NCBI GenBank assembly: GCA_001692895.1
Contig: KV748182.1
Location: forward strand, 3,166,341-3,230,340
DNA length: 64,000 nucleotides
Reading direction: 5' to 3'
From: Cenococcum geophilum 1.58
Lineage: Eukaryota; Ascomycota; Dothideomycetes; Gloniales; Gloniaceae
A model generated the notes under the pieces. That model did no database searches, was not told where the DNA came from, and was given only the letters and a program-made list of their open reading frames with translations. A program made the position numbers and the translations under genes. Position 1 is the first letter of the stretch. Each line of letters opens with the position of its first letter. This document shows positions 2,173 to 27,989 of the stretch, piece after piece.

Positions 2173-2597
2173 TATAACGGAACCTTGTAGCAAGAACTAC
2201 AATAGGCTCGTTATTGGGCTAGGTATGTAGGTAATGCAAGTATAGAGGTTAACGAGTAATAATAACTGGTAGAGTGGTTGCCTAACAGATTAACTCTAAT
2301 TATATTCTAAGAATTACTATAAGGAAGGAACTATCTAGGTAGGGACTAAGGGTCCTTAAATACACAACTATACTCCTATAAAATCCTTCTTATACATAAT
2401 ATATGTGTGCTCTATTTACTCTATTACGAATTATATAGATTCTACAGATTATATAGATTATATTACGTAACCTCGGTTACTATTCCTTATTATATAGCTC
2501 CACTAATTCCATCTTAAACCGTACTTATATTAACTAACTAGCTTCTTCTAACTCTTCCCTAAGTAGTTATAATATCGTACTTAAAGCGTCCGTAACA
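2173..2597 (-). repeat. Gypsy A 3' LTR
   Basis: 425 bp. Its edges correspond to TGTAACGG and CCGTAACA, that is TG..CA termini allowing for transitions. It shares most of its sequence with the Gypsy B LTRs except for a stretch of about 80 bp in the middle. Confidence 0.88.
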
Positions 2598-5500
2598 CCA
2601 TCTCCCTCCTCTTTATCTTTATCATTAAAGATTCCTAATATCTCTAAGTTGTTTACTAAAGGTGTGATATTCATCTAATTAATTTAGTTAATATTGTTGC
2701 TTATTATACCTAAAGCAATTTCTTCTTCCTTAACCGCTTGTCGTACTCGTACTATTACTGCGATATTGTCTCTTAGTGAGATTATACCGTCTCTATATTC
2801 TCGTTGTTTAAAAGAGGGGTTAGTTTATATTATATTAGCGAACCCATCTTCGCGATAACCGTCCTTTTACTTAAAGTGCACTAAAGCGAATATTTGTTTA
2901 TCCTATAATATTTGCTCCGTCTCTAATACTAAATATACATAACCTATTACTCTTAATAGTTGTCTAGTTCCCTAATTAACTTGTCTTAGGGTCTTATATT
3001 TAATCTGCTGCTATATAGCTAGATAATAAACTGTCTATTACTCTGGCGGAGTTGCGCTATTTCTATAATGCTAAATAAGAGGCTGCCGAAGCTTAGCAAC
3101 GGGCCCTTAAGTCTCGTTTTATGGCGTCCGCTTAGTTAATCCGTCTTAAGAAGATATATAAGAAGGTTTATTCTAAGGAGTGGAAACTTATAAAATAGGA
3201 TCTATAGGAACTTAGTAATAAAAGAATAGATTTTCCTTTAATAGAGAAGGAAACAGGTCTAAGTAGCTCGGCAACTACTCTTCTTAGGTCCCCCTTAGGT
3301 AACTTATTCTTTAGCGATCCTTTTTTATTAATACTGCCTAACCTAATTTCTTTTAATACTCCTATACCTTTCTTATAGCATTTTTTAAATTCTCTAGTAG
3401 CTCCTAGGTAGTCTTATTATAGCCTATCCACTTAACCTTATACTATATTTTATTGTTAATATCCTTATAACTAATAATCTTTAAAACTTACTATTTATCT
3501 TCTTCCTATCCTCTATATATATCTACTTTATAAACTAGTGGCTTAATATTCCTATATACTAGCTCTAGTATTATAATATACTATATAGGGTAGATCTTTA
3601 TTTTAGCTAGTAGGTTTAACTTAAATATAACTAGTGAAATTCTTTATATAATTTTAAAAGGTCCTAGTCTAATATAGTCTAACTTTTTACTTAATTGTCA
3701 ACTCTTAAAATTTTTGTGTAGTAGCTATACTTTATCTCCCTCCTTAAGATCTAGTCCCTTAGATCTCTTAGCATTATAGTACCTTTTTATTCTTTTTTAT
3801 ACTTTCTTTACTAATTCTATAAGGTCTATATAAAGATTCATTAACGTTTTTATTCTTTCTTTAGCTGTACTACTTATCTTCTTTACTTATTATAGTAACA
3901 ACGATATTCTTAGCTTATATCCGTAATTTGCCTTAAATAGTAATATACCTATTCCTTCTTAAGGTATTACATTATATATAAATTGTGTAATTAGTAATAG
4001 CGATACCTAATTATTCTGTATATAATTAATATAGTACCTTAGATACTGCTCTAGTGTCTAATTTAATCTTTCTATTTAACCGTCTGTCTGCGGATAATAT
4101 ACGGTAAAAGTTGCTACTTAAACTCCTTATTTCGCTAAAAATACCTCCTAAAATACTGCTATAAATCTTAAATCTCTATCCAATATAATCTTACTTAGTA
4201 CTCTATGTCTTATAAATACTTCTTTAACATAGATTCTAGCAATATCTTCCGCTAAGATTTCTTCTATGCATGCTATAAAGTATCCCTACTTTATAAGCTT
4301 ATCTACTATTACTAAAATCGCGTTGTAATCCTATCTAGTAATAGGGTCTCTTAACCTTAGTAACTTAATAATAAAGTTCTATAATATAACCTCCTATAGT
4401 CTTTTTGGTGTTTTAATAGGTTGTAGCCCTTTATATAGCTTATGCCTTACTAGTTTATTCCTTTAGCAATCTAGATATTCTTTTATAACCTTTTTAGCTA
4501 TTCTCTAGATTCTATTAATAATATACTCCTCTTAGAGTCTTAACACTAAGCCTATAGCTCTATTATATCCTTAAGTTAATCCCTTATAGAATTCCTTTAT
4601 AAATTGCTCTGCTATGCTTTTTAAGATATACTTAGCTTCTTAATTTTTGTATATATCCGTCTACAGATCTTCTAGTTATACTTTTAGAATTCTTTATGCC
4701 TAAAAGCTTTCTAGAGACTTATAAACTTTCTTTAGTTCCTCCTAAGTTGCTATAATCTTTAGATAATTATACCTAATTAGTCCGTCTATATCTTTTCGCA
4801 GTAAAGCCCCTAATGGCTTCTTTTAGTTTTATAGTTTAGCCTTCTAACTTAGATCATCTGCTCATATATTGTCTATACCTTTAGTATACTAAATCTTAAA
4901 ATAGTATTCCGTAAGTATCTCTGCCTATCTAACCTATCTTTAATTAAGTTCCTTTATTATTAGAAATTCTGTTAAGTTCTTATAATCTATCTTAACTATA
5001 AATAGTTTCTCTATGCCTTGTAAAAATACTCTTTATTCCTTTAATACTATAACTATACCTAATAACTCCTTATTATAGATATCATAGTTTAACTCTAGTA
5101 GTGTTATTTTCCGACTATAGTATACTACTAGGTGCCATTTATCTTAATATTTCTGCGTAAAGTACGCCCTTAGTATATAGTCTAATATATCTGTTTCTAT
5201 AACTATCTCTAGTCCTAGTTAATAGATCTTAAGAACTAGCTCCTAGGTAAACAATTCCTTAATTTTTTTAAATAATTTTTACTACTCCTTTCCCTATGCC
5301 TATAGTTCTTCTTTCTTTATTAGTCGCGTAAGTGGCTTAATATCCTTTAACTACTGCGCTATAAACCTTCTATAGTAATTATAAAACCCTAAAAATAATC
5401 TTAACTATATAATATTCTCTAGTTCTTACTAATTTACTATAGCCTTAATTTTCTTTAGATCTATACTAAGTTAGCCTAGTTTAATAATAAATTCTACAAA

Positions 5501-7845
5501 ATCGGTCTTTTTAGTAAAGAACTCGCATTTCTTAATTACTACTGGCATCTATTCTTCTTATAGTCTCTTTAAGACCCACTTAACATATTCCCCATACTCT
5601 TCCTTAGTTATTAAGTAGATAATAATATTGTTAAGGTATACTATAATAAATTCATCTAAGTGTGCTCCTAATACATTGTTAGTGCGTTTATAAGCCCAAA
5701 TTATATAACTAATAGTTTATATAGTCCTTCCTTTAACCTAAAGGCTGCTTTCTATTTATTGCCTTCCTTAATCCTAATCTAATAGTACGCCTATTTTAGA
5801 TCTATCTTTATAAAGATTTACGCGTTACCTATCCTGTCTTAGATTTCGCTAATTAAGGGTAAAGGATACTAATCCTTTCTGGTAATGCTATTTAACTATC
5901 TATAGTCGATGTATAGCCTTAGCTTGCTATTTTTCTTTAGTATAAACAATACTAGATATCCCGCTAATAACTGTGATGGTCTAATATATCCCTTTTATAA
6001 GTTCTCTTAGATAAACTCTTTTAATACTCTACCTTCTTCTTTAGTAAGCTTATAGATTAGAAAGAACCTTAGACTTATTCCTAGTTTTAATTCTATCTTA
6101 TAGTCCTATACTATATACTCTAACAGCTTCTTACTTTTTAGTAACTATAGTTTCTTACTATACTTATAGTATCTCTTTAGTACGTAACTTAGTCCTTTTT
6201 CTATTTCTTTATAGGTTACTCCTACTTAGTACTATACTAACTTAGCTTATTATCGCATCTTACAGTATTAAGTATCTCTAATATTAACTTAACCTGTAAC
6301 CCAATCAATCCTTAAATTATACTCCTGTAACTAAGGCATTCCTAATACTGCCTTATTATTTCCTAATAGTAATATGTTAAAAGATATCTCAATTTATCTC
6401 CTTTTAATAGTTATCTGGATAAGTCCTGTTTTAAGATTAATAATCCCTCCTCTATAGGCTATTAGATCTCCTAAAATTATCACTAATAGGTAAGATTGCT
6501 CCTTCTATCTATAAGGTAATCCTATTTTTTTAACTACTGCTAGTAAGATATAGTTCCGCGTTACTTTACTATCTATTAGCGCTTTAAACTATTAATCTTA
6601 CCACTTAACTTGTAAATTTAGGTATTATCCTTAAATTCCTTTAAGGGTCTAGGGCTCTATTACTAGCTCCCTCTAGTCCTATAGGCCTTTACTTTTCCCA
6701 ACTATTAGCTACTTAATCCTTATATACTTAGCTTACTCTTTAGCTAATACTTAGTTCGCTTTTTATCTTTAATATACTATAGATAGGTATTCTCTAGATA
6801 TTCCCACTACTATTATCTATCTAGGCATTTTTCCGTAAGGAATCTTTTTAGTTAAAGTATTAAGTCGCCTAACTCCTAAACTTCCGCTAAATGCCAGCTA
6901 TGCATATACTTAGCATTCCTATATTATTACTTATCCGTTATCCAATATATCCTTATAGGGTATTTCCTTTTTTTTTTTTTAGGTTCTTATATATCTTATA
7001 TATATTATCCACGTATACAATCTATAATAGCATATAGTATACTAGGTGCTTTAGGTTAACTCTTAGCTCGTCTTTATCCTTAAGTTTAAACCTTTATTAT
7101 GCTAATCTAAACGTTATAACTTTATTTATAGGTACTAAGATACGTCTTTTACTTCTCTAGTCCTCTAATTATTCCTTTAGATCCTTTAACGTTATAATTA
7201 AGGCTCCTTTAATATAATTTATGGCCTTTTTTATAATCAGGTGGTCTTAGATAACTTTTTCGTCCAACTATATATAGAAATCTTCCCACTCGTTATTATG
7301 CCTCTGTCTATACCACTTTTAGTACAGCTGCTAAAGTATATACAGCTTATCTGTAAGGAAGTATCTTCTTATTACTATATCGTAACAGCCCTTTATATAT
7401 TGTTCCTTAAATCTAATAGGGATCCCTAGATCCTTTTCGTTTTCCAGTTCAATAAGCCACTTAGCTCTTAGTATGCCTACTCTAGGCCTATTAGTAATTC
7501 TGCGTACTAACGCTCTGTCCCTTATATGTCCCACTATACTAGATCTTTTATCTAGTTTCTATTCTTACTATACGATAATTCTTTATTTAAACTCTGCTAT
7601 AGTTTTTTTTAGTTTACGTCTTGCGCTCTAATCCTCGAAGTTCTCTTACTTCTTAATCTTAATATTGACTTTTTAATCTTTAGTCTAAATACTGTATTTT
7701 ACTAGTAAGTCCTCTAAGTCCATATATCTGTCTCCTAGTTTAGTTGCTATTTATATTACAGATTCTCTAATCTGTAAACATCGGGAAAATATTCGCAGGC
7801 TGGGTTTCAAGTTGACTTTGCTAAGCGCGTTTCGCGTAATTGACA

Positions 7846-7960
7846 TGCAATTTAACCAACTTAACACGCAATTAACCAACTTAACACGCAATTAACCAAC
7901 TTAACACGCAATTAACCACTTAACACGCAATTAACAACTTAACACGCAATTAACGCAACT
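7846..7960. repeat. Tandem array, 18-20 bp units (D1)
   Basis: About five to six copies of CAATTAACCAACTTAACACG, with slightly shortened copies towards the right end. It lies just inside the left end of element D1 and has no clear counterpart in D2. Confidence 0.8.
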
Positions 7961-8103
7961 TACCATATTCAAAAGTTGAATGACATGTAGTTAACCAACT
8001 TATATTTAAAAGTTAAATAATACGCAGTTAACTAAACTTATATATTCCTTAATATGCAATTGTGGAATATAATATATTATTTAAGTTTATGCTAATTACA
8101 AGA

Positions 8104-8280
8104 GGCTCTGCCGAAGCTCTACAAAGCAGAGCTCTGCGAAGCTCTGCACGAAGCTTCGCGACAGAGGCTCCGCACGAGGCTCCGCACGAAGCTCCGCACG
8201 AAGCTCTGCGTACAGAGGCTCTGCACGAGGCTCTGCGCGAAGCTCTGCGTACGGAGGCTCTACACGAAGCTCTGCATCTG
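8104..8280. repeat. Tandem array 1 of D1, 12-bp GAAGCTCTGCAC units
   Basis: About 14 units of GAAGCTCTGCAC and close variants. Because the unit is four codons long and lacks stops, open frames appear on both strands (8062-8304 + and 8096-8323 -). I treat these as consequences of the repeat, not as genes. The units are mostly the G/C form, with few RIP-type changes. Confidence 0.85.
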
Positions 8281-8473
8281 TCAGATAATCTATATTCTCT
8301 CTAAGGCCACAGGTCACGTGCACAGGTCACGTGCACTGTAAAATCTCTTTGTAGCTCAAGCCCTCAGGGGCCAGACAATTAATCAACCCATTTCATCAAT
8401 TTGCAGCCACCTTAATTTTTACCTTCCTTACATCCTCCCTAACTTAGGAGGCACTGGAACGGCAGCTAGCAGA

Positions 8474-9018
8474 GGACCGTCGCCAGAACTAGACGACCGT
8501 TGCAGAACTAGACGACCGTCGCCAGGAACCAGACGACCGTTACTAGAACCAGACGACCGTCGCTAGAACCAGACGACCGTCGCCAGAACCAGACGACCGT
8601 TGCTAGAACCAGACGACCGTCGCCAGAACCAGACGACCGTTGCCAGAACCAGACGACCGTCGCCAGAACCAGACGACCGTCGCCGTCGCCAGACGACCGT
8701 CATTAGAGCCAGACGACCGCCCTAGAACCAGACGACCGTTACTAGAACTAGACAACCGTCGCTAGAGCTAGACGACCGTCGCTAGAGCTAGACGACCGTT
8801 GCTAGAACTAGACAACCGTTGCTAGAACCAGATGACCGTTGCTAGAACCAGACGACCGTCGCCAGAACTAGACGACCATCGCCAGAACCGGACGACCGTC
8901 GCCAGAACCAGACTACCGTTGCTAGAACTAGACCACCGTTACCAGAACCAGACCACCGTCGCCAGAGCTAGACCATTGTTACTAGAACTAGACAACCGTC
9001 GCCAGAGCCAGATGACAA
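8474..9018. repeat. Tandem array 2 of D1, 20-bp units
   Basis: About 27 copies of CGACCGTCGCCAGAACCAGA, varying mainly by C/T (CGTCGCCAG versus CGTTGCTAG). The same array type recurs at 13188-13620. Confidence 0.87.
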
Positions 9019-9076
9019 CGACTAGCTAGCAAACACTATAAACGATTTAATTAATCGATCGAATTAAGGTAACACA

Positions 9077-9432
9077 GACAGGTAGGCATAGATAGGCAGA
9101 CGCTAACGGGTAGGCAGATACGACAGGAGGTAAATATAAATAGGTAAGTAAATGCAGATAGGTAGGTAGATACTAACGGGTAGGCAGATAGAGATAGGTA
9201 GGTAGATGCAGATAGGCAAGCAGATGTAGACAGGTAGGCAATATAGACAGGTAGGTGATGCAGATAGGTAGACGATGTAGATAGGTAGGCGATGTAGACG
9301 GGTGGGTAATGCAGACAGGTAGGCGATGCAGATAGGTAGACGATGCAGACAGGTAGACGATGCAGATAGGTAGACGATGTAGACAGGTAGACGATGCAGA
9401 TAGGTAGACGATGCAGACAGGTAGGTAGATGT
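9077..9432. repeat. Tandem array 3 of D1, GGTAGGCAGATA-type units
   Basis: A run of roughly 12-bp units built from GGTA, GGCA and GATA tetramers. The long open frames on the minus strand here (9103-9466) are repeat artefacts. The counterpart in D2 is 13684-13912. Confidence 0.85.
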
Positions 9433-11969
9433 AGACATAATAGATTATATAAAGAAGTGTATACAATTTATTTTACTAGCCTTATAAACGGCTTTAAAAT
9501 AGTTTTTATTATTTAAAATATACTATTAATATAAAAGAAGTAAATAGCTCTAAATATAATTGTAGTTGCTAAATGCGCAGTTTGCGCGCAGTTTACGCGC
9601 AATTTACGCGCAGTTTACGCAGTTTACCTGTCAAAAAAAACACGACATAGGTAGGTTGGTCAAGTAGCCAAATAACCTAAACTGCGCGCTAACTGCGCCG
9701 ATTACTGGTAACTGAGACCATTAGCAGCCTATAATATTTTGCCGATGAAGAAGCTTCTTACTTCTTATCTATAGGTGTCCTAATTCGTTCTCCGAATTCT
9801 TAGCCCCTTAGATTCTTTAATCTTAAGCTTGCTTCTAACTTAAGCCTAGCTCTAGCCTTAGTCTAACTAGGCTTACTTAGTATTCTTATCTTATCTTAAG
9901 AGTCTTAAATCTTACTTATCTTGTCTTAAGAATCTTATACCTATAGGAAACTTCGTCCTAAGCTTATTTATATATCTTTAAACTAAGCCGTCACTCTACT
10001 CTATCGGTTATTGTCTGTTATAGGTCTTTAAGCTTACCTTATCTTATTTTAAGAATCTTAGTTATCTCTTATCTCGTCTTAAGAATCTTAAGCTTTTAGC
10101 CTTTTACCTTTACCGAGTGCTAAAGTAGCTCGCTATCCTACTTCTCTTACGTTTTGCGAAGCGATAGATATTATATTTAGCGGGGTCTTAATCCCTACTA
10201 ATGTTCCCTATTTTATAGTAGAATTATTCTCTACCTTTAGTATAACATCTCTAATAGCTACGTGTTCCTAGTAAACCGCCCTTATTACCTCATTGTTATA
10301 AAATATTTTGCCTTTATTAAATTTATTATTTTTAATATCCGATCTGCGAACTGGTTCATTAGTTTCTTTATACTTTGCTAAGTATAGCTCCTATAGCTAA
10401 TAGCTTGCACTATATTTAGCGTCCTTATAAATTTAGTATACGTTATTATAATAAAACGCGAAACTTCTAATTAAACACTCTTTTATTCCTCGTAGTATAT
10501 TATTATCCCTCTATATATATATATCGTCTACTAGTCTTATGCCTTTTACTATATAGTAACTCTGCCTACTTCTATAGTCTCTAACATAATAACCTTATTT
10601 CCCGCAATTTATATAAGCTCCCTTTTTAAACTATTTTTCTTGCTATAAAGTCCGCCTAAACGTCTTCTGCTGCTAAGATCCCTGGTTTAGCCTCTACTCC
10701 TTAGTCCTATAATTACTAGATCCTTAACCTCTAGGTTTTTATAGTTTTTTACTCCATCTTNTATAGGCTTCTTTAGTACCGCTTAGGTTTATTAGCTCTG
10801 TGCTATACTATAGTTTTAACCTTAGCTTTAGTTATTGCGTACTCTGCGCCTTATATAACTATAGAACTCTATCCTAACCTTGCTTAGTCTGCTCCCTTTA
10901 GTAGATTTAATTATTAATCTTAATCGCCTAATCTATTAGTTCCCTTAGGGTATCCGTATCTTTTATTAGAATAATTATATCCTAGACTTTAGCCTTAAGT
11001 CCCTATTTATACTGTGCTATAAGCGCCCTATTATTCTACTTAACTTATATTACTAATATCTAGAACTACATTATGTATTTAATTGCTAAGGTTTATTGCG
11101 TAATGTCTTAGAGTTTTCTTTCCGCTATAGTTACTGCCTCTAGGTCTCTAAATATTTGCGTAAGTTGTTCTATAAATCTATTCTAGCTTAAGAATATAAA
11201 CCGTACCTCTTAGTTTATAGTTATTATTCCATTTACCTGGATTTCTATAAAGTAAGGCTTAAACTATTTAAGTGCCCTTTCTGTTAAGAACAATCCTATA
11301 TACACTATTTAATCCATAGGTATTGCTAGCTTAGCTCCCTCTTACGTAACCTTAAAGTGCATTTACATAAGGAATCCTTTAAGCTTTAATTTTTCTCCTA
11401 AGAATCTTTTAATTAATGGTAACTTAACCTTTACTGCGCCTATCCCGTTAATCCTATTCTTTAATATTATATTGTTTTCTATTAGCTAGTTAATTATCTT
11501 TTATAGTTATCTAACCGTTATAGGTTGCTATAAGTTAGTGTTTACTATACTAGTGTCGTTACCTAATCCCAATATAGTTGCCGCCGTTAATAGCGTTATA
11601 GTAGCTACTTTTAGTGGCATATTGTTCAACTTCTATATTAATACCGTAACTAGGTAGTAATTATATAACGGAACCTTATAGTAAGAACTATAATGGGCTT
11701 ATTATTAGGCTAGGTATATAGGTAATATAAGTACAGAGGTTAACGAGTAATAATAACTGGTAGAGTGGTTGCCTAATAGATTAACTCTAATTGTATTCTG
11801 AGAATTACTATAAGGAAGGAACTATCTAGGTAGGGACTAAGGGTCCTTAAATATACAACCGTACTCCTATAAAATCCTTCTTATACATAATATACGTGTG
11901 CTCTATTTACTCTATTACGGATTATATAGATCCTATAGATTATATAAATCATGTTATGTAACCTTACAT

Positions 11970-12201
11970 TAGGAAAAAAAATTTGGCCCCGTTATTGCAA
12001 GCGAAAATCGGGGTCTGCAAAACCTGCGTAAGTTGCAATTTTAGCAATTTGCGGGCAATTTGCAGCAATGTGCTATAAACACATAGGCTACCTATGCACG
12101 CGCCTGGCCTATCTATGTGTTTATAGCAAATTGCTAAAATTACGACTTACGCAGACCCCGATTTTCGCTTGTAATAACGTGCCCAAATTTTTTTTTCCTA
12201 A
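11970..12201. repeat. Palindrome at the left end of D2
   Basis: TTAGGAAAAAAAATTTGG at the left is matched in inverted form at the right, and pairing continues through a GCGAAAATCGGGGTCTGC block and a GCAATTTGC block for about 85 bp per arm. Both sides have TA next to GGAAAAAAAATTTGG, so it could be a separate 227-bp MITE (11972-12198). The alternative is an inverted duplication of D2's own end. The good match of D2's two outer ends favours the second reading. Confidence 0.7.
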
Positions 12202-12207
12202 TAGCTA

Positions 12208-13032
12208 AAGGTTCTGTATAAGGCTTTATATAAAGCTCTACACGAAGTTCTATATAAAGCTTTGCATAAAGCTCTATACGAAGCTCTACACAAAGCTTTA
12301 TATAAGGCTCTACGGGCTTTATACGAAGCTCTACATACTAAGGCTCTATATAAGGCTCTACACAAAGCTCTGCACGAAGCTCTATATAAAGCTCTGTACG
12401 AAGCTCTATATAAAGCTCTACACGAAGCTCTACACAAAGCTCTATATAAAGCTCTATATAAAGCTCTACACAAAGCTCTGTATAAAGCTCTATATAAAGC
12501 TCTACACAAAGCTCTATACAAAGCTTTGCACGAAGCTCTATATAAAGCTCTACACGAAGCTCTATACGAAGCTTTGCACGAAGCTCTGCACGAAGCTCTA
12601 TATAAAGCTCTGCACGAAGCTTTATATAAAGCTCTATACGAAGCTCTATATAAAGCTCTATATAAAGCTTTACACGAGGCTCTATATAAGGCTCTATATA
12701 AAGCTCTGTATATAGAGGCTCTGCATAAGGCTCTGTATAAAGCTCTATATAAAGCTCTACGCGAAGCTCTACGCGAGGCTTTGTATAAAGCTCTATATAA
12801 AGCTTTATATAAGGCTCTACGGGCTCTATATAAAGCTCTGTATAAAGCTCTATATAAAGCTCTACACGAAGCTCTACACGAAGCTCTGCATAAAGCTCTA
12901 TATAAAGCTCTATACGAAGCTCTACATAAAGCTCTACGAAGCTCTATACGAAGCTCTATATATAGAGGCTCTGTATAAGGCTCTGCGCGAAGCTCTGCGT
13001 ATAGAGGCTCTACACGAAGCTTTATACAAAGC
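12208..13032. repeat. Tandem array 1 of D2, 12-bp units
   Basis: About 65-70 units alternating between GAAGCTCTGCAC and its fully transitioned form AAAGCTCTATAT. The 238-codon open frame at 12262-12978 (+) and the 107-codon frame opposite it arise because the 12-bp unit has no stop in those frames. The variable positions are exactly those expected from C-to-T and G-to-A change. Confidence 0.88.
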
Positions 13033-13187
13033 CTTTATGTGTGCGCGCGACATACTACTATTGGGTCCCCGCTATATTCCTAATAGCCTCTACACGTGCC
13101 TCTGCTAAGTATACCCCTATATACACCTAGGTAGCCACCTCATTTTTTACCCTTCCTTATATCCTCCCTACCTAGGAAGATACCAGA

Positions 13188-13620
13188 ACGACAGCCAGCA
13201 GACGACCGTCGCCGGAGCCAGATAACCGTCGCCAGAGCTGGACGACCGTCACCAGAGCCAGACGACCGTCGTCAGAGCCAGACGACCGTCGTCAGAGCTG
13301 GACAACCGTCGTCAGAGCTAGACGACCATCGTCAGAGCTAGACGACCGTCGCCGGAGCCAGATGACCGTCGCCAGAGCTAGACGACCGTCAGAGCCAGAC
13401 GACCGTCGCCGGAGCCAGATGACCGTCGCCAGAGCTAGACGACGTCGCCAGAGCTAGACGACCGTCGCTAGAGCTAGACGACCGTCAGAGCCAGACGACC
13501 GTCGTCAGAGCTAGACGACCGTCGCCGGAGCCAGATGACGTCGCCAGAGCTGGACGACCGTCGCCGGAGCCAGATGACCGTCGTCATCGCCACACGACCG
13601 TCGCAGAGCCACACGACAAC
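13188..13620. repeat. Tandem array 2 of D2, 20-bp units with shortened copies
   Basis: Copies of CGACCGTCGCCAGAGCTAGA with several shorter units. It is the same family as 8474-9018. Confidence 0.86.
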
Positions 13621-13683
13621 CGTTTAAACGACTAGCAGCGAACGATAAACGATTTGATCGATCGATCGAATTAAGGTGACATA

Positions 13684-13869
13684 GATAGGTAGGCATAGAC
13701 AGGTAGGCACAGACAGGTAGGCAGATAGGTAGGTATAGACGGGTAGGTATAGACGGACGGACAGACAGGTAGGTAGGTAAGTAGGTAGGTAGGCAGGTAG
13801 GTAGGTAGGTAGGCAGGTAGGAGGCAGGTAGGTAGGCAGGTAGGCAGGTAGGTAGGTAGGTAGGTAGGT

Positions 13870-13900
<31 letters not shown>

Positions 13901-13912
13901 TAGGTAGGTAGA
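13684..13912. repeat. Tandem array 3 of D2, GGTA/GGCA tetramers
   Basis: Starts as 12-bp units (AGATAGGTAGGC) and decays into a pure run of GGTA and GGCA tetramers, with GGCA predominating near 13870-13900. Confidence 0.88.
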
Positions 13913-16900
13913 TGATTTAGAGCCTCTGCGAGAGGCTTCCCCCTTAACGCCTAAAGTAGATAGCTCTACATTTTATATAGTTATAATATAAATATATTTA
14001 AAAGTATATTATAGAAATCTATAGGAATATATAATAATTTGGTTATTATATAATATAATTATAATTTATATAGTTACATATAGTTACAATTTATACAGTT
14101 TTTACAATTCGTACAGTTTTTACAATTTATATAGTTTGCGCACTATTTATTTATAAGGTAGCATTTTACCGCAATTTGCTATTAGATGCTGCAAACTTGT
14201 TACAAAATGCGCAATTTGCTATTAGGGTGCTGTAAACTTGTTGCAAAACGTGCGTTTTGCGCAAATTGCTATCGACTATATACGTCTGCCGCGATCGTAT
14301 AGTTTGCGGCAATTTGCCGCAAACCGCAACAATGACCCTAAAAAAAAATTTCCTGATGTAGTTACTATTCCTCGTCATATAGCTCCACTGGTTCCATCCT
14401 AAACCGTACTTGTATTAACTAACTAGCTTCTTCTAACTCTTCCCCAAGTAGTTGTAATATTGTACTTAAAGCGTCCGTAACACTTCTAATATTAACGGTA
14501 TCCTTTTAGCAGCTAGATATAGATATTCTTGCGGTTAAGCTTCCTATTAAGGAAGGCCGTAATTATATCTAAGTGCTTGTACTTTAGATTGTATATAGTA
14601 ACTAGGGCTATTAGTAGCTTAAATATACTAGGTTAAATAACGCTTGCGAATATATCGCTATAGTTAATTCCTAGGCGCTACTTATTACCGCGTAATATTA
14701 GCTGTGCTTTCTATCTAAATAGGACGTTATTCTTATTAAATTTATATATAAAGACCCATTTAATAGGTAGAGCCTTAGCTCTAGGTAGAAGTTTAACAAT
14801 CTTAAATAAGATATTTATTATTTAAGACTTCTATTCCTTATCCGCCGTAGCCTTCCACTCCTTCTTAAATATTAAATTTATGGCTTTCTTCCAGTTGTGA
14901 GGTTCTAGAGGTAGTCCTTTAGTTATCCTTATTTATTAAGGCTGTAATAGAGCACTTATAAATGTATAGGCGAAGGACGGGGTAAGGTAGGTAGCCTTTA
15001 TAGCCGGCTCCTTCCTTCTGGTTTTATAGAGTACGCTATAGTTAAGCTGTAGCTTTAACTGTATATAAGTGTTTGTTATAGGTTTAGGTTCCTTATTTAA
15101 GTACTTAGTTAAAATCTATTCTAAATCCTCCTAGTAGATATTTTTTAGGGGAGTCCCTTCCTAATAGAGGTGTCCTCCTAGATTAGGAAGCTCTTGCTAG
15201 TTAAGGCCTACCTATTTATTATTAGTAAGGGGAGGTTAATTAAGCTATAGTGCGATATTATAATCGCCAGAGGCACCCCCTAACTAAAAGTCACCCCTTA
15301 ACTAAGAGGCCCAAAAGTCCTAGTCTGCATCCTATAGTAACTAAGAAGCCTTACTTCCTTTCTATAGTGACTAAGAAGCCTTACTTCTTTCCTATAGTGA
15401 CCAAGAGACCTTTAGTATAGTGTCTTTAATAGGAAGTTCCTTAAGTAGTATCTAGCAGATATTATTGTTGCTACCTTCTTCCTTACTAATTGGTATAGTA
15501 AGAAAGGTTCCTAATTTATTAAAGGTAATACTACTTAATTAAACAACCCTATTCTTATAAGGTAAATAGACGCGATATATATATAAGCCTTTATAGCTAA
15601 CCAATTGTCCTTTCTAAGCTCTTATAACGAACTTATTACCCTATTACTACTAAGGGTCTTTTTTATTAATATAGACGTAGGTGGGACAGCTATAGATCTT
15701 CCAGTTAGCGTACGTAATTGTAAAATTGGTGTTATTTAGGGTATAAGCTATTGCTTAAGCGGGCGGAGCTTTATCCTTATTAACTAATATAGGTAATATA
15801 TTAAGCCTATATACGGCTGCCTTGGCGACTTTAGGCTAGAGCTTTAGTAGTAATTAAGTCTTAATTAATATTACCTTAACCCTTTCTTTAACTAGGTAGT
15901 TGGCCTTCTCTACTATTCTATTTTAGTGTGTAGTGTATAGGGTAGAGGCCTTAGTGACTATGCCTTCGTTCTTAAAGAAATTGGTTAAGTCCTTATTAAA
16001 CCACTTAGCAGCTTTATCTAATTGGAAGCAGCCAATTGTTATCCCTATTTAAGTCTTAATTATATAGATAAACTACTTTAAGGTAAAGGCCGCGGAGCCT
16101 CTATTTAATATATAGTAGATCTATTTAAAGCGTGTTTAGTTATTAATAAATAATACCCAGTACTTCTCTCCGTAAAGGCCTTCGTGTTTTAATAGCCTAA
16201 CTATATTAATATACACCTTTTTAAATATGCAATTACTGCGTTGTTAAGGGCGTCTTAATATTTGCTTCTTGGCCTTTCCAAGGTAATAGTCCTCGCAGTA
16301 AAATGGCTTATCCTTAGTAACTATAATCCCCTTTATACTTCTAGCCAGTTAACATATCTAGTTAGGAGGAAGGTATTATAGTCTCTTATACTAAGTCTCT
16401 ATAGTAGCTTTAGTAAGCACGCCTTTCTTATAGAGGCGTAATTATGCAGTAGCTAAAGCTATTATAAAAGGAACCTTTATAGGGTTATCTACCAGTATAA
16501 ATAAATTAAGTCCGTTAATATATAGAATATAGGCTATTTCTACCTAATCTTTAACGAAGTTAATTATGTTATAAAGACTATTAAAAAAGACTCCCTTTTC
16601 TTATAAGATACTAAGCGAGATAATATTTGTAAAGAAGTTAGGATAGTAATATACTTTAGTAAATATAATTATATAGGCTAAGTAGTTAGTTTAGGTAACT
16701 ATAAGCTCAACTAATCTAATACTAATGGCCTTTATTAGGCCTCCTCCCGTCTAAATTTAGATAGGTTTAATTTCCTAATACTAAATAAACTTCCTAATGT
16801 CGTTACCTATATAAATATTTAAGCAATTATCGGCTATCTAGAAGTCCTTAATATTTATTCCTAAAGCTATAGCTACTGGCCTAATAACCTACGTAGTAAA

Positions 16901-17021: not shown

Positions 17022-17443
17022 TGTAACGGAACCTTATAGTAAGTACTACGGTGGGTTCGTTATTGGGCTAGGTATGTAGGTGAAGCAAAGTTAAGTCAAC
17101 AACGTAATAATAATTAGTGGAGTGGTTGCCTAACAAATTAACTCTAATTATATTCTGAGAATTACTACAAGAAAGGAACTATCTAGGTAGGGACTAAGGG
17201 TCCTTAAATACACAACCGTGCTCCTATAAAACCCTCCTTATACGTAATATACGTGTTATATATGTTATACATACGTTCCCTTCATATACTATGTACACTG
17301 CGTATAACATTATGTGACTTACTTACTATTCTTTGTTATATAGTTCTACCGGTTCTATCCTAGACCATACCTATATTAACTAACTAGCTTCTTCTAACTC
17401 CTCTCTAAGTAGTTATAATATTATACTTAAAGTGTCTATAACA
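17022..17443 (-). repeat. Gypsy B 3' LTR
   Basis: 422 bp, starting TGTAACGGAACC. Its partner is 24633-25054, equal in length. The visible differences are mostly transitions. Confidence 0.9.
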
Positions 17444-20400
17444 CTATTTCCCTCCTCTCTATCTTTATCCTTAAAGATTCTAAACATCTCTAAGTTGTTT
17501 ACTAGAGGTGTAATATCCGTCTAATTAATTTGGTTAATATTATTACTTATTATATCTTCTAAGGTTTCTAAACCTCCTTCTTCTTTATAAGCGCAGTATT
17601 ATACTCGCACTATTGCTAGCATACTATCGCTTAATAAGATTATGCCATCTTCGTGTTCTTATTATGCGAAAGAGGGGTTAGTTTATATTACGTTGGCGAG
17701 TCCTTCCTCCTAGTAACCCTCTTTATGTTTAGAGTGCACTAAAGCAAATATTTATTTATCTTGTAATATTCGCTCTATCTCTAACGCTAAATATATACGT
17801 CCTATCTTTCTTAATAGTCTTTAAGTTCCCTAAGTAATTTGTTATAGGGTCTCGCGTTTAGACTACTGCTATAAAACTTAATGGTGAACTATTATAGGCT
17901 CTTACTAAGCTTAAACGTTTTCGCGATACGGAACAGAAGGCCCTAGATACTCGCATCGTGGCGTCTGCCCGTCTTCTTCGTCTTAAGAAAGTGCGTAAAA
18001 AGGTTTATTCTAAAAAGTAGAAACTTATGGAATAAGGTCTACAGGAACTTAGTAATAAGAGAACCAACTCTCTTCCTGTAGTAAAGGGAACAACTCTAAG
18101 TAGTTTAGCAGTCGCTCTTCCTAGGTCCCCCTTAGGTGACTCATTTTTTAATAATCCTTCTTTATTAATGTTGCCTGACCTCTTCTCTTCCGATACTCCT
18201 ATACCTTTCCTATAGCATTCTTTAAATTCTTTAGTGGCTTCTAGGTAGTCTCATTATAGCCTATCCACTTAACTTTGTACTATATTTTATTGTTAACGTC
18301 CTTATAACTAACGATCTTTAAAACTTACTATTCGTCTTCTTCTTATCCTTTATACGTGTCTGCTTTATAGACTGGTGGCTTAATATCTCTATATGCTGGC
18401 TCTAGTATCGCAATGTGCTATATAGGGTAAATCTTCATCTTAGCTAGTAGGTTTAACTTAAATGTAACCAATAAAATTTTTTACGTAATTTCGAAAGGTC
18501 CTAGTCTGACATAGTCCAACTTCTTACTTAGTCGTCGACTCTTAAAATTTTTGTATAGTAGCCACACTTTATCTCCCTCCTTAAGATCTGGTCCTTTAGA
18601 TCTTTTAGCGTTATAGTATTTCTTTATTTTCTGCTATACTACCTTAGCTGTCTTTATAAGGTCTATATAAAGATTTATTAAAATCTCTATTCTTTACTTA
18701 GCTTTGCTACTTATCTTCTTTACTTAATATAGTAATAATAATGTTCTTAGCTTATATCCATAATTCGCCTTAAATAGTGACGTGCCTATTCCTTCTTGTG
18801 GTGTTGTATTATATATAAACTATATAACTAGTAATAGCGATACCTAATTATTTTATGCGTAATTAATATAGTGCCTTAAATACTGCTCTAGTGTCTAATT
18901 TAATCTTTCTGTTTAACTGTCTGTCTACGGATAATATACAGTAGAAGTTGCTGCTTAAACTCCTTACTCCGCTAAAAATACCTCCTAGAATACTGCTACG
19001 AATCTTAAATCTCTATCCAATATAATTTTGCTTAGTGCTCTATATCTTATAAATACTTCCTTAACATAGATTTTAGCGATATCTTCCGCTAATATTTCTT
19101 CTGTATATGCTATAAAGTATCCCTACTTTATAAGCTTGTCTACTATTACTAAAATCGCGTTATAATCTTATTTAGTAATAGGGTCTCTTAATTTTAGCAA
19201 CTTAATAATAAAGTCCTATAATATAACCTCCTATAGTCTCTCTGGTATTTTAATAGGTTGTAGCCCTCCGTATAGCTTATGCCTTATTAGTTTATTTCTT
19301 TAGCAATCTGGACACTCCTTAGTGACCTTTCTGGCTATCCTTTAGATTCTATTAATAATATACTCCTCCTAGAGTCTTAACACTAAGCCCATAGCTCCGT
19401 TATGCCCTTAAGTTAGTCCTTTATAGAAATCTTCCATAAATTACTCTGCTATACTTTTTGGGATATACTTAGCTTCTTAGGTTTCGTATATATCCGACTA
19501 TAGATCTTCTAGTTATACTTCTAGAATTCTTTATACCTAAAAGCTTTCTAGTGTCTTGTAGACTTTCTCTAACTTATTTTCTTAAGTTACTATAATCTTT
19601 AGGTGATTATACCTAATTAATCCATCTGTATCCTTTCGCAGTAAAGCCCCTAATGGCTTCTCGTTATTTTGCAGTTTAGCTTTTCTACTTAGAGCATCTG
19701 CTTATACGTTTTCTGTACCCTTAGTATACTAAATCTCGAAATGGTATTCCGTAAGCATCTCTGCCCATCTAACCTATCTTTAGTTAAGTTCCTTCGTTAT
19801 TAGGAATCCTATTAGGTTCTTATAATCCATCCTAACCATAAATAGTTTCTCTATACCTTGTAAGAATGCTCTCTATTTCTTTAGTACTGTAACTATACCT
19901 AACAACTCCTTATTATAGATATCGTAGTTTAGCTCTAGTGGTGTTATCTTCCAACTATAGTATACCACTAGGTGCCATCTATCCTTATATTTTTATAGAA
20001 AGTATACTCCTAGTATAAAGTCTAATATATCCGTTTCTATAACCGTTTCTAGTCCTAGTTAATAGATCTTAAGAACTAGCTTCTAGGTAAATAACCTTTT
20101 AACTTCCTTAAACAGTTCTTATTATTCCTTTCCCTATACCTATAGTTCTTCTTTCTTTATTAACCGCGTAAATAGCTTAATATCTTTTAACTATTGCGCT
20201 ATAAACCTTTTATAGTAATTATAAAACCCTAAAAACGATCTTAACTGCGTAACGTTCTCTAGTTCTTGCCAATTCACTATAGCCTTAATCTTCTTTAGAT
20301 TTATACTAAGTTGGCCTAGTTTAATAATAAATCTAACAAAATTGGTCTTCCTGGTAAAGAACTCGCATTTTTTAATTACTACTAGCATCTGTTCTTCTTA

Positions 20401-23400
20401 TAGTCTCTCTAAAACCTATTTAACGTGTTTTCTATATTCTTCCTTAGTTATTAAGTAGATAATAATATTGTTAAGATATACTATAACAAAATTCATCTAA
20501 GTATTCTCTTAATACATTGTTAATACGCTTCTAAAACGTTACTGGTGCGTTTATAAGCCCAAATTATATAATTAATGGTTTATATAGTCCTTCCTTTAAC
20601 CTAAAGGCTGCCTTTTATTTNTTGCCTTCCTTAATCCTAATCTAATAGTACGCCNATCTTANATCTATCTTNATAAAGATTTNCGNATTACNNATCCTAT
20701 CTTAGATTTTACTAATTAAGGGTAAAGGATACCTATCCTTCCTAGTGATGCTGTTTAACTATCTATAGTCGATATACAGCCTTAGTTTGCTATTTTTCTT
20801 TAGTACGAACAGTACTAGATAACCTACTAATAACTGCGATGGTCTAATATATCCTTTTCGTAAGTTTTCTTAGATAAACTCTTTAAGTGCTCTACCTTCC
20901 TCCTTAGTAAGCTTATAGATTAGAAAGAACTTTAGACTTATTCCCTCTTCTAATTCTATTTTATAGTCCCATACTATATACTCTAACAGCTTTTCGCTTT
21001 CTGGTAACTATAACTTTTTGCTATATTTATAGTATCTCTTTAGTATATAACTTAATCCTTAATTGGTTTCTTTATATATTACTCTAACCTAGTACTATAC
21101 TATCTTAGTTTATTGTTGCATTTTACGGCGTTAAGTATTCCTAATATTAACCTAACCTATAATCCAATTAATTTTTAGATTGTATTCCTATAACTAAGGC
21201 ATTCCTAACACTACCTTATTATTCCCCAATAGTAATATGTCGAAAGACATCTTAACTAGTCTTCCTTTAATAGTTAGCTGAATAGGTCCTATTTTAAGGT
21301 TAATAATGCCTCCTCTATAGGTTATCAGATCTCCTAAAATTATTACTAATAGGTAAGGGTATTCCTTCTATCTGTGTAGTAACCCTATTCTTTTAACTAC
21401 TATTAGCGAGATATAGTTCCTTATTACTCTACTATCTATTAATGCCTTAAACTGCTGATCTTGCCACTTAACTTATAAATTTAGGTGTTGTTCTTAAATT
21501 CCTTTAAGGGTCTAAGGCTCTACTACTAGTTCCCTCTAGTCCTATAGGCCTTTACTTTTCCTAACTATTAGCTGCTTAATCCTATTTATACTTAGTCCAA
21601 CTTAGGCTAATACTTAGTTCGCTTTTTTTCTTTAATATACTATAGATAGGTATTCTCTAGATATTCCCACCATTATTATCTATCTAGGCATTCTTCCGTA
21701 AGAAATCTTCCTAGTTAAAGTATTAAGTCCCCTTATTCTTAAACTTCTACTAAGTGCTAACTATGCATATACTTAACGTTTTAATATTTCGCCTCGTCCG
21801 TCATCTAATATATTCTTATTAGATACTTTCGGTTTTTGTCCTTTAGTGCTCTATATATATTACACGCATTATCTATATATACTATCCACAATAGTGTATA
21901 ATATGCTTAATGTCTTAGGTTAACTCTCGGCTCGTCTTTATCCTTAAGTTTAAACCTTTCTTATATTAATCTAAGCATCGCAACTTCGTTTACAGGTACT
22001 AAGATTTATCTTTTACTTCTCCAGTCCTCTAATTACTCCTCTAGATCCTTTAACGTTATAATTAAGGCTTCCTTAATATAAGTTATAGCCTTCTTTATAA
22101 TTGGGTAGTTTTGGACTACTTTTTCGTCTAACTATATATAGAAATCTTCCCACTCGTCATTATACCTTTATCTATACCACTTTTAGTACAGCTACTTAAG
22201 TATATACGGTCTATCCGTAAGAAAGTATCTTCTTATTACTACGTTATAACAACCTTTAGTGTGTCGTTCCTTAAACCTAGTTAGAATCCCTAGATCCTCT
22301 TCTTGTTTTAGTTTAGTAAGCCACTTAGCTCTTAGTATACCTACTTTCAGCCTATTAGTAATTCTTTATACTAGCGCTCTATCCTTTATACGTCCTAATA
22401 TACTAAATCTCTTATTTAGTTTCTATTCTTACTATAAGGTAATTCTTACTCTAAATTCCTCTATAGTTTCTTTTCTTTCTTATCTTATAAGTGGATCCTT
22501 AAAGTTTTCTTACTTCTTAATCGCGGTATTAAACTTTTAATCTTTAGGCTGAATACTATATTTTCCTAGTAAGTCCTCTAGGTCTATATGTCTATCTCCT
22601 AATTTAACTACTGTTTATATTGCAGATTCTCTAATCTATAGCGAAGCTGCTTACTTCCTACCTATAGATATCCTTATTTATTCTCTAAATTCTTAACCCC
22701 TTAGATTCTTTAATCCTAAGCTGACTTCTAACTTAAGTTTAGCTCCCGCCTTAGTCTAACTAGGCGTCTATAGTATTCTTATCTCATCTTAAGAGTCTTA
22801 AATCTCACTTATCTCGTCTTAAGAGTCTTATACCTATAGGAAACTCTGTCCTAAGCTTATTCGTATATTTCTAAACTAAGCTACTGCCCTACTTTATCGG
22901 TTTTCGTCCGTTATAGGTCCTTAGGTATACCTTATCTTGTCTTAAGAATCTTAGTTGTCTTTTATCTCATCTTAAGAATCTTAAGCCTTTGGCTTTTTGC
23001 CTTTATTAAGTAGTAAGCTAGCACTAGCAGTTATCTACTTACTTAATTGTCTTTAAATATTATTTCTTCTGTCTTATAAAGCGATGGATACTATATCCAA
23101 TGGTATTATAATGCCCGTTACTAAACCTTGCTCTATAGCGGTCTCAGTCTCTACTTCTATTACGTTATTAAGGTTTAGATACCCCTAGTTAGTTCCTTTA
23201 CTGTCCTTATCGCTGTTAATTAATAAGTACTCTAACTCCATTATTATTATTACTAATTATTGTCCGTATATTGCTGTAATATCTTAATCTAGCTTATAGA
23301 GTTAATCTTATTCTTTATCTAACTCTTAAGTCCCTTTAAGTTCTCTTAACTCTAGTTCTTATAGCCAATAGCTTATGCTATACTTAGCGTCTTTATAAAT

Positions 23401-24632
23401 TTGGCATGCGTTATTATAACAAAACGCGAAACTTCTAATTAAATACTCTTTTATTCCTTATAGTATACTATTATCCCTCTATACGTATATATCTTCTACT
23501 ATTAATTTAGTTCCCTTTATTATATAGTAACTCTAACTATCTTTATAATCCCTCGCAAAATAACCTTATTTCCCGCAATTTATATAAGCTCCATCTTTAA
23601 ACTACTAACTCTGCTATAGGGTCCGCCTAAATATCTTTTGCTAATAAGATCCCTGGTTTAGCCTATGCTCCTTAGTCCTATAATTACTAGATCCTTAACC
23701 TCTAGGTTTCTATAGTTTCTTACTCTATCTCTTATAGGTTTCTTTAGTACTACTTAGGTCCATTAGCTCTACGCCATACTATAGTTTCTAACTTAGCTTT
23801 TATCGTTGCGTGCTCTGCGCCTTATATAACTATAGAACTCTATCCTAACCTTTCTTAGCCTACTCCCTTTAGAAGATCCTATTATTAATTTTAATCGCCT
23901 AATTAATTAATTCCCTTAGGGTGTCCATATCTTCTATTAAAATAATTACGTCCTGGACTTTAGCCTTAAGTCCTTGTTTATACTATACTATAAGCGCCTT
24001 ATTATTCTATTTAACCTATATAGTAAGTATTTAAAACTATATCGTATACTTAATTGCTAAAGTTTACTATATTAGGTCCTAAAGCTTTCTCTTTGCTATA
24101 GTTATTGCTTCTAGGTCCCTAAATATCTATATTAATTATTCCGCGAATCCTACTTAGCTAGAAAACACAAATCGTACCTTTTAATTAGTAGTAGTTATTC
24201 CGTTAGTCTATATTTCCGTTAAGTAGGGTTTAAACTATTTAAGTGCCCATCCTATTAGAAATAGTCCTATATAGGCTATCTAATCCATTATTATAGCTAA
24301 CTTAGCCCCTTCTTGCATAACTTTAAAATACATTTACGTTAGAAATCCTTTAAGCTTCGATCTCTCTCCTAAGAATTATTTAATTAAAGATAACTTAACC
24401 TTTACTACTCCAATTCTATTAAGTCTTTCTTTAAGTATTTAGTTGTTTTTGTTTAACCTATTAACAATTTCCTGTAACTACCTAACCGTGACTGGTTGTA
24501 AGTTAGTATCTTGCATACTTGTATTTCCACTTAACCTTAAAGTGGTTGCTGCCGTTAACGGCGTCGTGGTGGCTACTTTTAGTGGCATGTTATTTAACTT
24601 CTATATTTATTACTATAACTAGGTAGTAATTA

Positions 24633-25054
24633 TATAACGGAACCTTGTAGTAAGTACTACAGTAGGTTTATTATTAGGCTAGGTATATAGATAAAGCAAA
24701 GTTAAGTTAATAACGTAATAATAACTGGTGGAGTAGTTGCCCAATAGATTAACTCTAATTGTATTCTAAGAATTACTATAAGGAAGGAACTATCTAGGTA
24801 GGGACTAAGGGTCCTTAAATATATAACCGTGCTCCTATAAAATCCTCCTTATATGTAATATATATATTATACATATTATACGTACGTTCCCTTCGTACAC
24901 TGCGTACACTGCGTACAACATTATATAACTCGCTTACCATTCTTTATTATATGGTTCTACCAGTTCCATCCTAGACCGTGCCTATATTAACCAACTAGCT
25001 TCTTTTAACTCCTCTCCGAGTAGTCGTAACATTGTACTTAAAGCGTCCGTAACA
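24633..25054 (-). repeat. Gypsy B 5' LTR
   Basis: 422 bp ending GCGTCCGTAACA, which reads TGTTACGGACGC at the start of the element on the minus strand. Confidence 0.9.
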
Positions 25055-26421: not shown

Positions 26422-27113
26422 GGATTAACCCTACTTGTCGCGCGGATATAGACCGTCTTAGTGCCCTACACATCCTGCCCCCCGTAGGGCCTTAATATTC
26501 CACCTCTTATGACCTGGCAACCGGCTTTGCGTTCTTATTGCGTAGATCTGATCGTCTAGCTACGGCGCGTATAGGAGGCTTAATAAAGTTCTAGTGACAG
26601 AGCCGCATGTAGGTGGGCTTTGTAGTCGATTTAGAAATCACCTAAAGAATATTTAATATATATAAATTAGTTAAATTAAGCTGAATATTAAGCCTCTCTG
26701 CAGCCTTAATTATATGCACAAGATTTATACCTAATATGCGTGAAATCTACGTGCACTATGTATTAAAAACCACTGTATTTTATGTATAAAGTCTACGGAT
26801 AAGACAGCCCATTTTATATTTAAATTTAGTTCTATATATACTAAAAATCTACCTAATATATACACAAACTTAATCCAAAATGCATTAATTTTAGATGCAT
26901 ATTATAGAGCGTAGAGACCGTAGGGTTCGCGGGAGGTACTATAATACCAGGAAACGCGCTAAGATAGCAGGGCGACGTCTTCTTGAACTTACTAACTGAC
27001 GACAGGGACGTTATACAATAAGGGGCGTTTAACGTGGAAATGGGTTAGTTATCTCACGGTTTTACACGTTGGGTTGGGCGCAAAAATCGGGGATCNGCAT
27101 GCCAAGGATTCTA

Positions 27114-27989
27114 CTGCCATTTCGGAAATATCGGGAACTCGCTTAGAGCGACGACGTCGCGCATCCACCCCACCATCAAAACAATATACCCCCTATAGCC
27201 CTACCAATATGGCTCCAATTTATATAAATAAAACCTTATTTTATAGCCTTAAAGTAGAGTTATAAAATAAGCCCTTATTTATATAAATTGGAGCCAAATT
27301 GGTAGAGCTATAGGGGGTGCTCGTTTTTGGGGGGAGAGGGGCTGGATTAGTCAGCGCAGAGCCTCAATTTAAGTTTTACGGCCACCCCCTATAGCCCCAC
27401 TAATATAGCTCTATATTTAATAAATAAAGACCTGTTTTATAGCCCTAGAATAGAGCTATAAAATGGGCCTCTATATATAAAAATTGGATTAATATTGGTG
27501 GAAATATATAGGGTGGATTGTTTTAGTAAGAGGGTAATGTGTTGCTGCGGCTTGGCGATTTTTACTAATATTTCCAAAACGGCAGTATACCCCCTATAGC
27601 CCCACCAATATAGCTCTATATTTTATAAATAGAGGCCCATTTTATAGCTCTATTCTAGGGCTATAAAACAGGTCTTTATTTATTAAATATAGAGCTATAT
27701 TAGTGGGGCTATAGGGGGTGGCCGTAAAACTTAAATTGAGGCTCTGCGCTGACTAATCTAGCCCCTCTGCCCCCAAAAACGAGCACCCCCTATAGCTCTA
27801 CCAATTTGGCTTTAAATTATATAAATATAACCTTATTTTATAGCCTTAAAATAGAGTTATAAAATAAGCCCTTATTTATATATATTAGAGCTATATTGGT
27901 AGGGCTATAGGGGGTATATTATTTTGATGGTGGGGTGGATGCGCGACGTCGTCGCTCTAAGCGAGTTCCCGATATTTCCGAAATGGCAG
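27114..27989. mobile_element. 876-bp fold-back (palindromic) element with TA duplication
   Basis: CTGCCATTTCGGAAATATCG at the left end is matched in inverted form at the right end, and the arms stay complementary over roughly 400 bp each. TA flanks both sides (27112-27113 and 27990-27991), and removal rejoins the right arm of the outermost TIR element. Within the arms are four modules of about 130 bp (27187-27318, 27383-27516, 27598-27720, 27784-27915). Each is itself a palindrome that begins ACCCCCTATAGC and ends GCTATAGGGGGT. No coding frame of note is present. It may belong to the TA-target MITE class, but I do not recognise the family. Confidence 0.8.

Follow-up and report, generated by a model that had tools for sequence, protein, structure and literature searches.

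How do two separate DNA insertions come to carry the same three kinds of tandem array in the same order? The question is raised by D1 and D2, two elements in a 64,000-nucleotide stretch of Cenococcum geophilum 1.58 (contig KV748182.1, positions 3,166,341 to 3,230,340 of the forward strand), hereafter called the window. We consider it probable that D1 and D2 are diverged, non-autonomous DNA transposons of one PlavakaB-like family, that an ancestral cassette of arrays has travelled in them as passive cargo, and that the 12-bp array of D2 was later altered in a manner resembling repeat-induced point mutation (RIP). If this is true, they provide an example, with Plavaka-like ends, of a non-autonomous transposon spreading several minisatellites as one cassette.

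Two insertions with empty sites in a decayed retrotransposon

The left part of the window contains two decayed copies of one long terminal repeat (LTR) retrotransposon, recognized by long direct repeats at a steady spacing (copy 1 at ~2173-14500, copy 2 at ~17024-25054). D1 (7779-9747, + strand) is a non-autonomous terminal inverted repeat element of 1969 bp with ends CATCGGSAAAATATT and is located in the interior of copy 1. D2 (11967-14358, + strand), of the same kind, is 2392 bp long, has ends CATYAGGAAA and splits the 3' LTR of copy 1. These coordinates, given in an earlier note on this DNA, proved right (D1 was taken as 7780-9748 in the window match search and in the base-composition, array-shuffle and end cross-pair runs).

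The spacing between the two retrotransposon copies falls from 14864 to 12893 across D1, an insertion of 1971 bp relative to the sibling retroelement. The LTR-LTR spacing within copy 1 grows from 9491 to 11885 across D2, an insertion of 2394 bp relative to the sibling LTR. Because each insertion equals the element plus 2 bp at its empty site, both D1 and D2 have a target duplication of 2 bp. The joined flanks of D1 match copy 2 at 326 of 400 aligned bases, and those of D2 match the 5' LTR of copy 1 at 337 of 389, both without gaps for 25-30 bases on each side of the junction. Two more LTRs match the D2 flanks at 312 of 387 and 307 of 379 bases, with gaps of one and two bases close to the junction. 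The duplicated dinucleotide is AA for D1 (7777-7778 and 9748-9749; GC at the empty site in the sibling copy) and TA for D2 (11965-11966 and 14359-14360; CG, TA and CG in the three sibling LTRs). With an empty site of its own in a sibling copy for each, D1 and D2 are separate insertions, as the earlier note had held, and the search for empty sites that it proposed has fixed the duplication length in both cases.

Similar ends and clustered subterminal motifs

The four element ends are CATCGGGAAA, CATCGGCAAA, CATTAGGAAA and CATCAGGAAA, all of which fit CATYRGSAAA and support the inverted ends of CATC[A/G]G type described earlier for both elements. Compared with the D1 end consensus, the right end of D2 has one mismatch and its left end two. 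Of the 127,982 sites in the window, both strands counted, six differ from this consensus at no more than one position, three of them being the two ends of D1 and the right end of D2; 69 differ at no more than two, including the four element ends. In a 15.8-kb stretch, 5 of 31,606 sites on both strands are within two mismatches. Judged from these counts, chance is unlikely to account for such a resemblance at fixed positions. A separate MITE-like (miniature inverted-repeat transposable element) inverted repeat at 31684-32280, with 116-nt arms, contains CATCACGAAAA/CATCGCGAAAA, sequences similar to the ends of D1 and D2, at 31784 and near 32171.

The motif GCARTTWRC is concentrated beside these ends. 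The four subterminal regions hold 19 of its 22 matches in the window (6, 6, 3 and 4, each within 254 bp of an element end), with 4.0 expected in the whole window by shuffling, and none was found in the cores of D1 and D2. In D1, the left subterminal repeats (7843-8043, +) consist of a 20-bp unit with GCAATTAAC followed by a 37-bp repeat, as seen from Tandem Repeats Finder (TRF) and motif counts, and the right ones (9575-9696, +) of an 11-bp unit GCGCAGTTTAC and one more motif. The tandem arrays detected there by TRF (20-bp at 7843-7962, 11-bp at 9575-9620) had not been counted in the earlier note. In D2, the left end (11967-12206, +) is a near-complete foldback with three copies of GCAATTTGC, and the right subterminal motifs (14171-14317, +) comprise four copies of GCAATTTGC on both strands.

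The earlier note had suggested that the three internal arrays might be transposase-binding subterminal repeats. This does not agree with the placement of GCARTTWRC, the candidate site common to all four ends, which lies near the ends and is absent from both cores; the subterminal motifs are therefore the likelier transposase sites, as far as their distribution can tell. CACTA elements are described as having closely spaced subterminal repeats at both ends (PMC8978399, in the part consulted), and D1 and D2 share this feature through GCARTTWRC, a motif chosen after looking.

The foldback in the left 240 bp of D2 has a z-score of -14.5, and none of 200 shuffles was equally stable. The sequence CCTAAT at 12197-12202 within it mirrors the start of D2 itself. 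Possible origins of the foldback are an inverted duplication of the end and a nested MITE. The right subterminal region of D2 also has a weak match to 31493-31625 (69%, E value 2.5e-4), both sequences being A+T-rich.

A common cassette of three tandem arrays

In both elements a 12-bp array comes first and a GGTA-rich array last, with a 20-bp array between them that is set off by a spacer on each side, so the order of the three arrays reported earlier is borne out by TRF. All features of the cassette are on the + strand. In D1, the 12-bp array (8105-8276; unit GAAGCTCTGCAC; 13.7 copies by TRF, 14 units in the unit analysis) is followed by a spacer (8405-8469), the 20-bp array (8470-9016; unit AGACGACCGTCGCCAGAACC; 27.4 copies by TRF), a spacer whose 3' part is already GGTAGG-like (9017-9099) and the third array (9114-9437), chiefly of a 17-bp unit with a GGTAGG core (TRF 9152-9437, 16.5 copies). 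In D2, the 12-bp array (12213-13034; TRF 12213-12984, 64.2 copies; 69 units in the unit analysis) has the consensus AAAGCTCTATAT, related to the D1 unit with many C>T/G>A differences. It is followed by a spacer (13133-13198), the 20-bp array (13199-13617; TRF 13200-13617, 21.4 copies) with a unit AGACGACCGTCGCCAGAGCC that ends in ...GAGCC, a second spacer whose 3' part runs into the third array (13627-13706), and the third array itself (13680-13911). TRF divides the last into a 14-bp stretch (13680-13773, 7.0 copies) and a 4-bp GGTA/GGCA stretch (13767-13911, 36.5 copies).

The third array had been described as GGTA/GGCA in both elements. It is GGTA-rich in both, with 14 GAYAGGTAGR motifs in D1 and 5 in D2; however, autocorrelation shows that the repeating unit differs, being 17 bp in D1 and 14 bp and then 4 bp in D2. 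The best TRF scores were 623 for D1 and 717 for D2, against maxima of 58 and 57 among 200 dinucleotide shuffles of each. The lowest-scoring arrays listed were the D1 12-bp array at period 12 (126) and the D2 14-bp stretch (97).

The main evidence for common descent of the cassette comes from the spacers. The spacer before the 20-bp array is identical between D1 and D2 in 54 of 67 columns (81%), and the one after it in 70 of 83 (84%), each pair differing by nine transitions, one transversion and three gaps. For neither pair did any of 200 shuffles reach an equal match. Since both spacers are shared along with the order of the arrays, and are partly non-repetitive, the cassette is probably older than the insertions of D1 and D2.

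Similarity among the 20-bp units is higher inside each element (0.83 and 0.86) than across D1 and D2 (0.79), and the strictly nearest unit belongs to the other element for 5 of the 27 units in D1 and 1 of the 21 in D2. The arrays thus appear to have been homogenised or expanded largely apart since. The earlier idea that the arrays expanded and were then spread with the element is supported in part: the shared spacers indicate that the set of arrays probably predates the split of D1 and D2, while the 20-bp units show greater likeness inside elements.

No place with the three arrays adjacent to one another outside an element was seen in the rest of the window. The best matches to the arrays elsewhere in it were a 32-bp stretch for D2 (E value 0.037) and stretches of 22-23 bp for D1 (E values 0.009-0.03). 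Pattern scans for the 20-bp unit and the spacers found 0 loci each in viral and prokaryote contigs, and one for the 12-bp unit found 0 loci in viral contigs, collections that say little about this case.

RIP-like base differences in the D2 12-bp array

DNA mutated by RIP is depleted in CpA/TpG and enriched in TpA. The observed/expected ratio of CpA+TpG was 0.35-0.45 in four flanking retroelement segments, in which TpA was enriched, 1.06-1.08 in gene regions of the window, 0.84 in D1 and 0.67 in D2. Because D1 and much of D2 are less depleted than the retroelement, the two elements arrived after most of its decay or escaped it. Within D2, the ratio was lowest in the 12-bp array (0.48), followed by the spacer (0.71), the 20-bp array (0.80), the right end (0.89), the GGTA array (0.93) and the foldback (1.04).

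Compared with the D1 unit, the D2 12-bp array shows transitions at 86 of 130 CpA/TpG sites, 76 of 136 CpG sites and 12 of 205 other C/G sites. The D1 array, compared with its own unit, shows 3 of 28, 0 of 26 and 1 of 42, respectively. Judged against the D1 unit in this way, the D2 12-bp array has a base pattern resembling that of a RIP target. A C>T/G>A direction of change in it is assumed and would rest on dinucleotide context. At C12 and the G1 of the next unit, the combinations were 34 TA, 1 TG, 7 CA and 25 CG; these joint differences would fit either a change of CpG to CpA and then of CpA to TpA, or two types of unit. Apart from a weak signal at lag 4, the variant units are scattered and not clustered; this suggests that the changes followed the expansion of the array. 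The earlier note had also raised a role of the arrays as heterochromatin seeds, and a RIP-like change of the D2 12-bp array is compatible with this candidate role.

In Neurospora, RIP is reported to integrate homology over several hundred bases, and a period of 11-12 bp was favoured in one experimental setting; in tests with weak homology other periods did better (PMC4858203, in the excerpt consulted). The array period as a cause of RIP is only suggestive. The 820-bp array of D2 would be long enough for a homology length of several hundred bases, and the 172-bp array of D1 perhaps is not. One could go further and regard a long 12-bp array as a self-sufficient trigger, sensed against itself at the 11-12 bp period and attracting mutation, while the transposon ends that the transposase requires are spared, which we regard as a long shot. 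In any case, with 12-bp arrays of 14 and 69 units, the longer of which is far more RIP-like, D1 and D2 constitute a natural test of RIP homology sensing. Should longer arrays prove more RIP-like in other copies in the genome as well, this would inform our view of how fungal genome defence recognizes short tandem repeats.

Origin and affiliation of the elements

In the scenario we favour, a transposase not seen here would move D1 and D2 in trans by cut-and-paste, recognizing the CATYRGSAAA ends and, probably, the GCARTTWRC motifs near them. The arrays would most likely be passive cargo between the ends that the transposase needs, the intervening stretch being free to hold them. The common ancestor would already have carried the 12-bp array, a spacer, the 20-bp array, a spacer and the GGTA-rich array, whose units would then have been expanded or homogenised apart in the two lineages. 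D1 and D2 would have landed in a retrotransposon far more depleted in CpA/TpG than themselves, and the long 12-bp array of D2 would later have been altered in a RIP-like way, perhaps because it offered several hundred bases of repeated homology.

Among known groups, the ends and the 2-bp duplication fit best with the PlavakaB branch of the CACTA/EnSpm (CMC) group, an assignment based on structure. PlavakaB elements have termini CATCA..TGATG and duplications of 2 or 3 bp (PMC12730594, section 3.2.2), and duplications of 2-4 bp are given for CMC elements (PMC4482050, in part). The duplication length at both D1 and D2 lies within the PlavakaB range.

Several observations weigh against this picture. 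The family is known from two copies, and none of the ten open frames in or overlapping them matches a transposase in Pfam at an E value of 0.01. CATCA is found only at the right end of D2, the D1 ends being CATCG and the left end of D2 CATTA, and end-like sites with one mismatch also occur elsewhere, at 5289, 32171 and 43881. The AA of D1 faces GC in its sole sibling, which supports the length of the duplication and not its sequence. GCARTTWRC was picked by eye after looking and is one of five patterns counted; none of the others (GCAATT, CGCAATT, GCAATTTGC and GCGCARTT) showed enrichment at all four ends. The matches of GCARTTWRC are not independent, as 10 of the 19 lie in the two short tandem arrays of D1 and others in repeats of D2. 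Beyond the ends and this motif the subterminal regions of D1 and D2 do not align, with 100, 13, 144 and 19 of 200 shuffles doing as well in the four cross pairs. With regard to RIP, the reference for mutation is the consensus of D1 itself, a choice that biases the comparison in favour of D1 and presumes a direction, and so large a share of changes at CpG is not classical RIP. The D2 stretch 13850-14049, outside the 12-bp array, is equally poor in CpA/TpG (0.49 in sliding windows). The 20-bp array of D1 is also changed, at 23 of 55 CpA/TpG and 23 of 164 CpG sites, so the 12-bp array is not the sole target in the family; the 20-bp array of D2 has fewer changes (11 of 43 and 9 of 124).

The failure of the subterminal regions to align would be expected if a composite satellite locus that already existed had been captured twice, by two different elements of one transposase group, and in oyster some related flanks carry unrelated repeats (PMC7492417, in the portion consulted). 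However, the cassette has the same order and orientation in D1 and D2, with spacers kept at 81% and 84%, the ends are similar and the duplication length is the same, no comparable array occurs elsewhere in the window, and two captures with identical limits are less simple; we therefore hold this origin to be improbable. The arrays might instead be functional binding arrays for a transposase or a host protein, for example through the CGAC-C-GTCG dyad of the 20-bp unit. The 12-bp and 20-bp units are retained in both elements, and the central CpG of the dyad (C8G9) is changed in 3 of 96 cases against 29 of 192 at the other two CpGs of the unit (p = 0.0014), a weak sign from a post hoc contrast without correction for multiple tests. 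Hundreds of bases separate the arrays from either end, and the unit of the third array differs between the elements, which leaves such a function doubtful as well. Slightly better placed, although still unlikely, is the idea that the 12-bp array of D2 expanded from units that were already A+T-rich, or that the D1 unit is the derived one, with no later RIP-like mutation. The direction of change is indeed assumed. Differences at C10 are linked with those at C12 (odds ratio 14.7) and those at C12 with the next G1 (odds ratio 121), and there is a weak 48-bp higher-order signal (TRF; lag 4, p = 0.007 of 12 lags). On the other hand, the 67 units include 36 distinct ones, neighbours are not similar at lags 1-3, and the differences fall at CpA, TpG and CpG positions with other C/G sites mostly spared.

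The assignment to PlavakaB has its own competitors, namely other superfamilies with TA or other 2-bp duplications, such as Tc1/mariner-pogo, PHISTA of the PHIS group and ESTA of the CMCT group. Tc1/mariner-pogo elements have a strict TA duplication. This agrees with the TA of D2; however, the AA of D1 shows that TA is not strict here, which speaks against Tc1/mariner-pogo. PHISTA families from rust fungi and ESTA families with TA duplications have been reported (PMC12730594, in part). ISL2EU, also of PHIS, is described in the part of the literature consulted as having AT duplications within AATT and ends that are usually GG, and as occurring in animals only; with duplications of AA and TA and with CAT ends, D1 and D2 do not agree with this description. 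The ends of PlavakaB, as far as they are described in the sources consulted, match those of D1 and D2 best, and we give another superfamily only a small chance. A Helitron or Helentron carrying the arrays does not fit either, as these leave no duplication and both insertions have one of 2 bp.

Coding content and other features of the window

Because its unit length is a multiple of three, the 12-bp array of D2 contains long open frames, and a coding role of this array was rejected. Nine of the ten frames of D1 and D2 have no Pfam family at an E value of 0.01. The tenth, a 257-aa frame in an array, matches 13 unrelated families (best HAM1_C, E value 9.7e-10), which we attribute to repetitive composition, since 12 of the 13 lack any single passing stretch. 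Searches of Rfam at the gathering threshold and for tRNA gave 0 matches each. Ten open frames of the window were likewise compared with Pfam, and seven had a match at an E value of 0.01, including TCO89, MAT1, AATF and DUF3835.

Other repeats accompany the retrotransposon copies. A reverse transcriptase fragment (RVT_2, E value 4.3e-09), which we take to be of Copia type, lies at 1856-2098 on the - strand. Inverted matches at 215-397 and 26964-28020, the right one interrupted by a palindrome, may mark the two ends of a larger composite element of ~27.8 kb bracketing both retrotransposon copies. At 27112-27991 there is an inverted repeat with 403-nt arms (91%), which holds shorter inverted repeats beginning ACCCCCTATAGC. 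An A+T-rich, CpA/TpG-depleted element at 45491-48296, presumably Mutator-like by its structure, has 140-nt inverted ends (94%) and a 9-bp flanking duplication AGAGAAAGA.

Comparison with known systems

The closest likeness in ends is to PlavakaB of the CMCT group in fungi (Kojima 2025, PMC12730594), which shares CATC-type inverted ends and a 2-bp duplication with D1 and D2. However, PlavakaB has CATCA throughout, and the part consulted deals with Agaricomycotina families and makes no mention of internal arrays, whereas D1 and D2 have CATCG, CATTA and CATCA ends and no transposase. Four unit sequences, searched as text, were not found in the openly licensed literature, and among the matches listed from that literature there was no element with three successive arrays and no Plavaka-like element with arrays.

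The statement of the earlier note that no described class has this layout is too strong in kind, as elements with one or two arrays exist, but three were not seen among the listed matches. The following comparisons rest on partial texts. Like D1 and D2, the non-autonomous Cg_HINE Helentrons of the Pacific oyster (PMC7492417) carry central tandem arrays, exceptionally of two consecutive kinds. They differ in having Helentron ends, no duplication, many monomers of 140-180 bp and one or two arrays rather than three, and in being from an animal. A CACTA-like element of quinoa with a captured satellite (PMC8978399) is likewise of CMC type, with subterminal repeats and an internal tandem array; however, it is a plant element with one satellite array near its 3' end, and a 3-bp duplication is stated for CACTA.

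More distant parallels are the Tetris foldback element of Drosophila virilis (PMC4079207) and the BrickBuilt MITE of Porphyromonas gingivalis (PMC4596501). Tetris is non-autonomous and carries tandem repeats, and its transposase was not found, as in D1 and D2, but its repeats of ~220 bp lie inside long inverted repeats and its duplications are 8-10 bp. BrickBuilt has a minisatellite in a small inverted-repeat element, but it is bacterial and has one 23-nt array. Tandem arrays in non-autonomous elements are known from such systems, and the presence of three in a Plavaka-like element would, as far as the listed matches show, be new.

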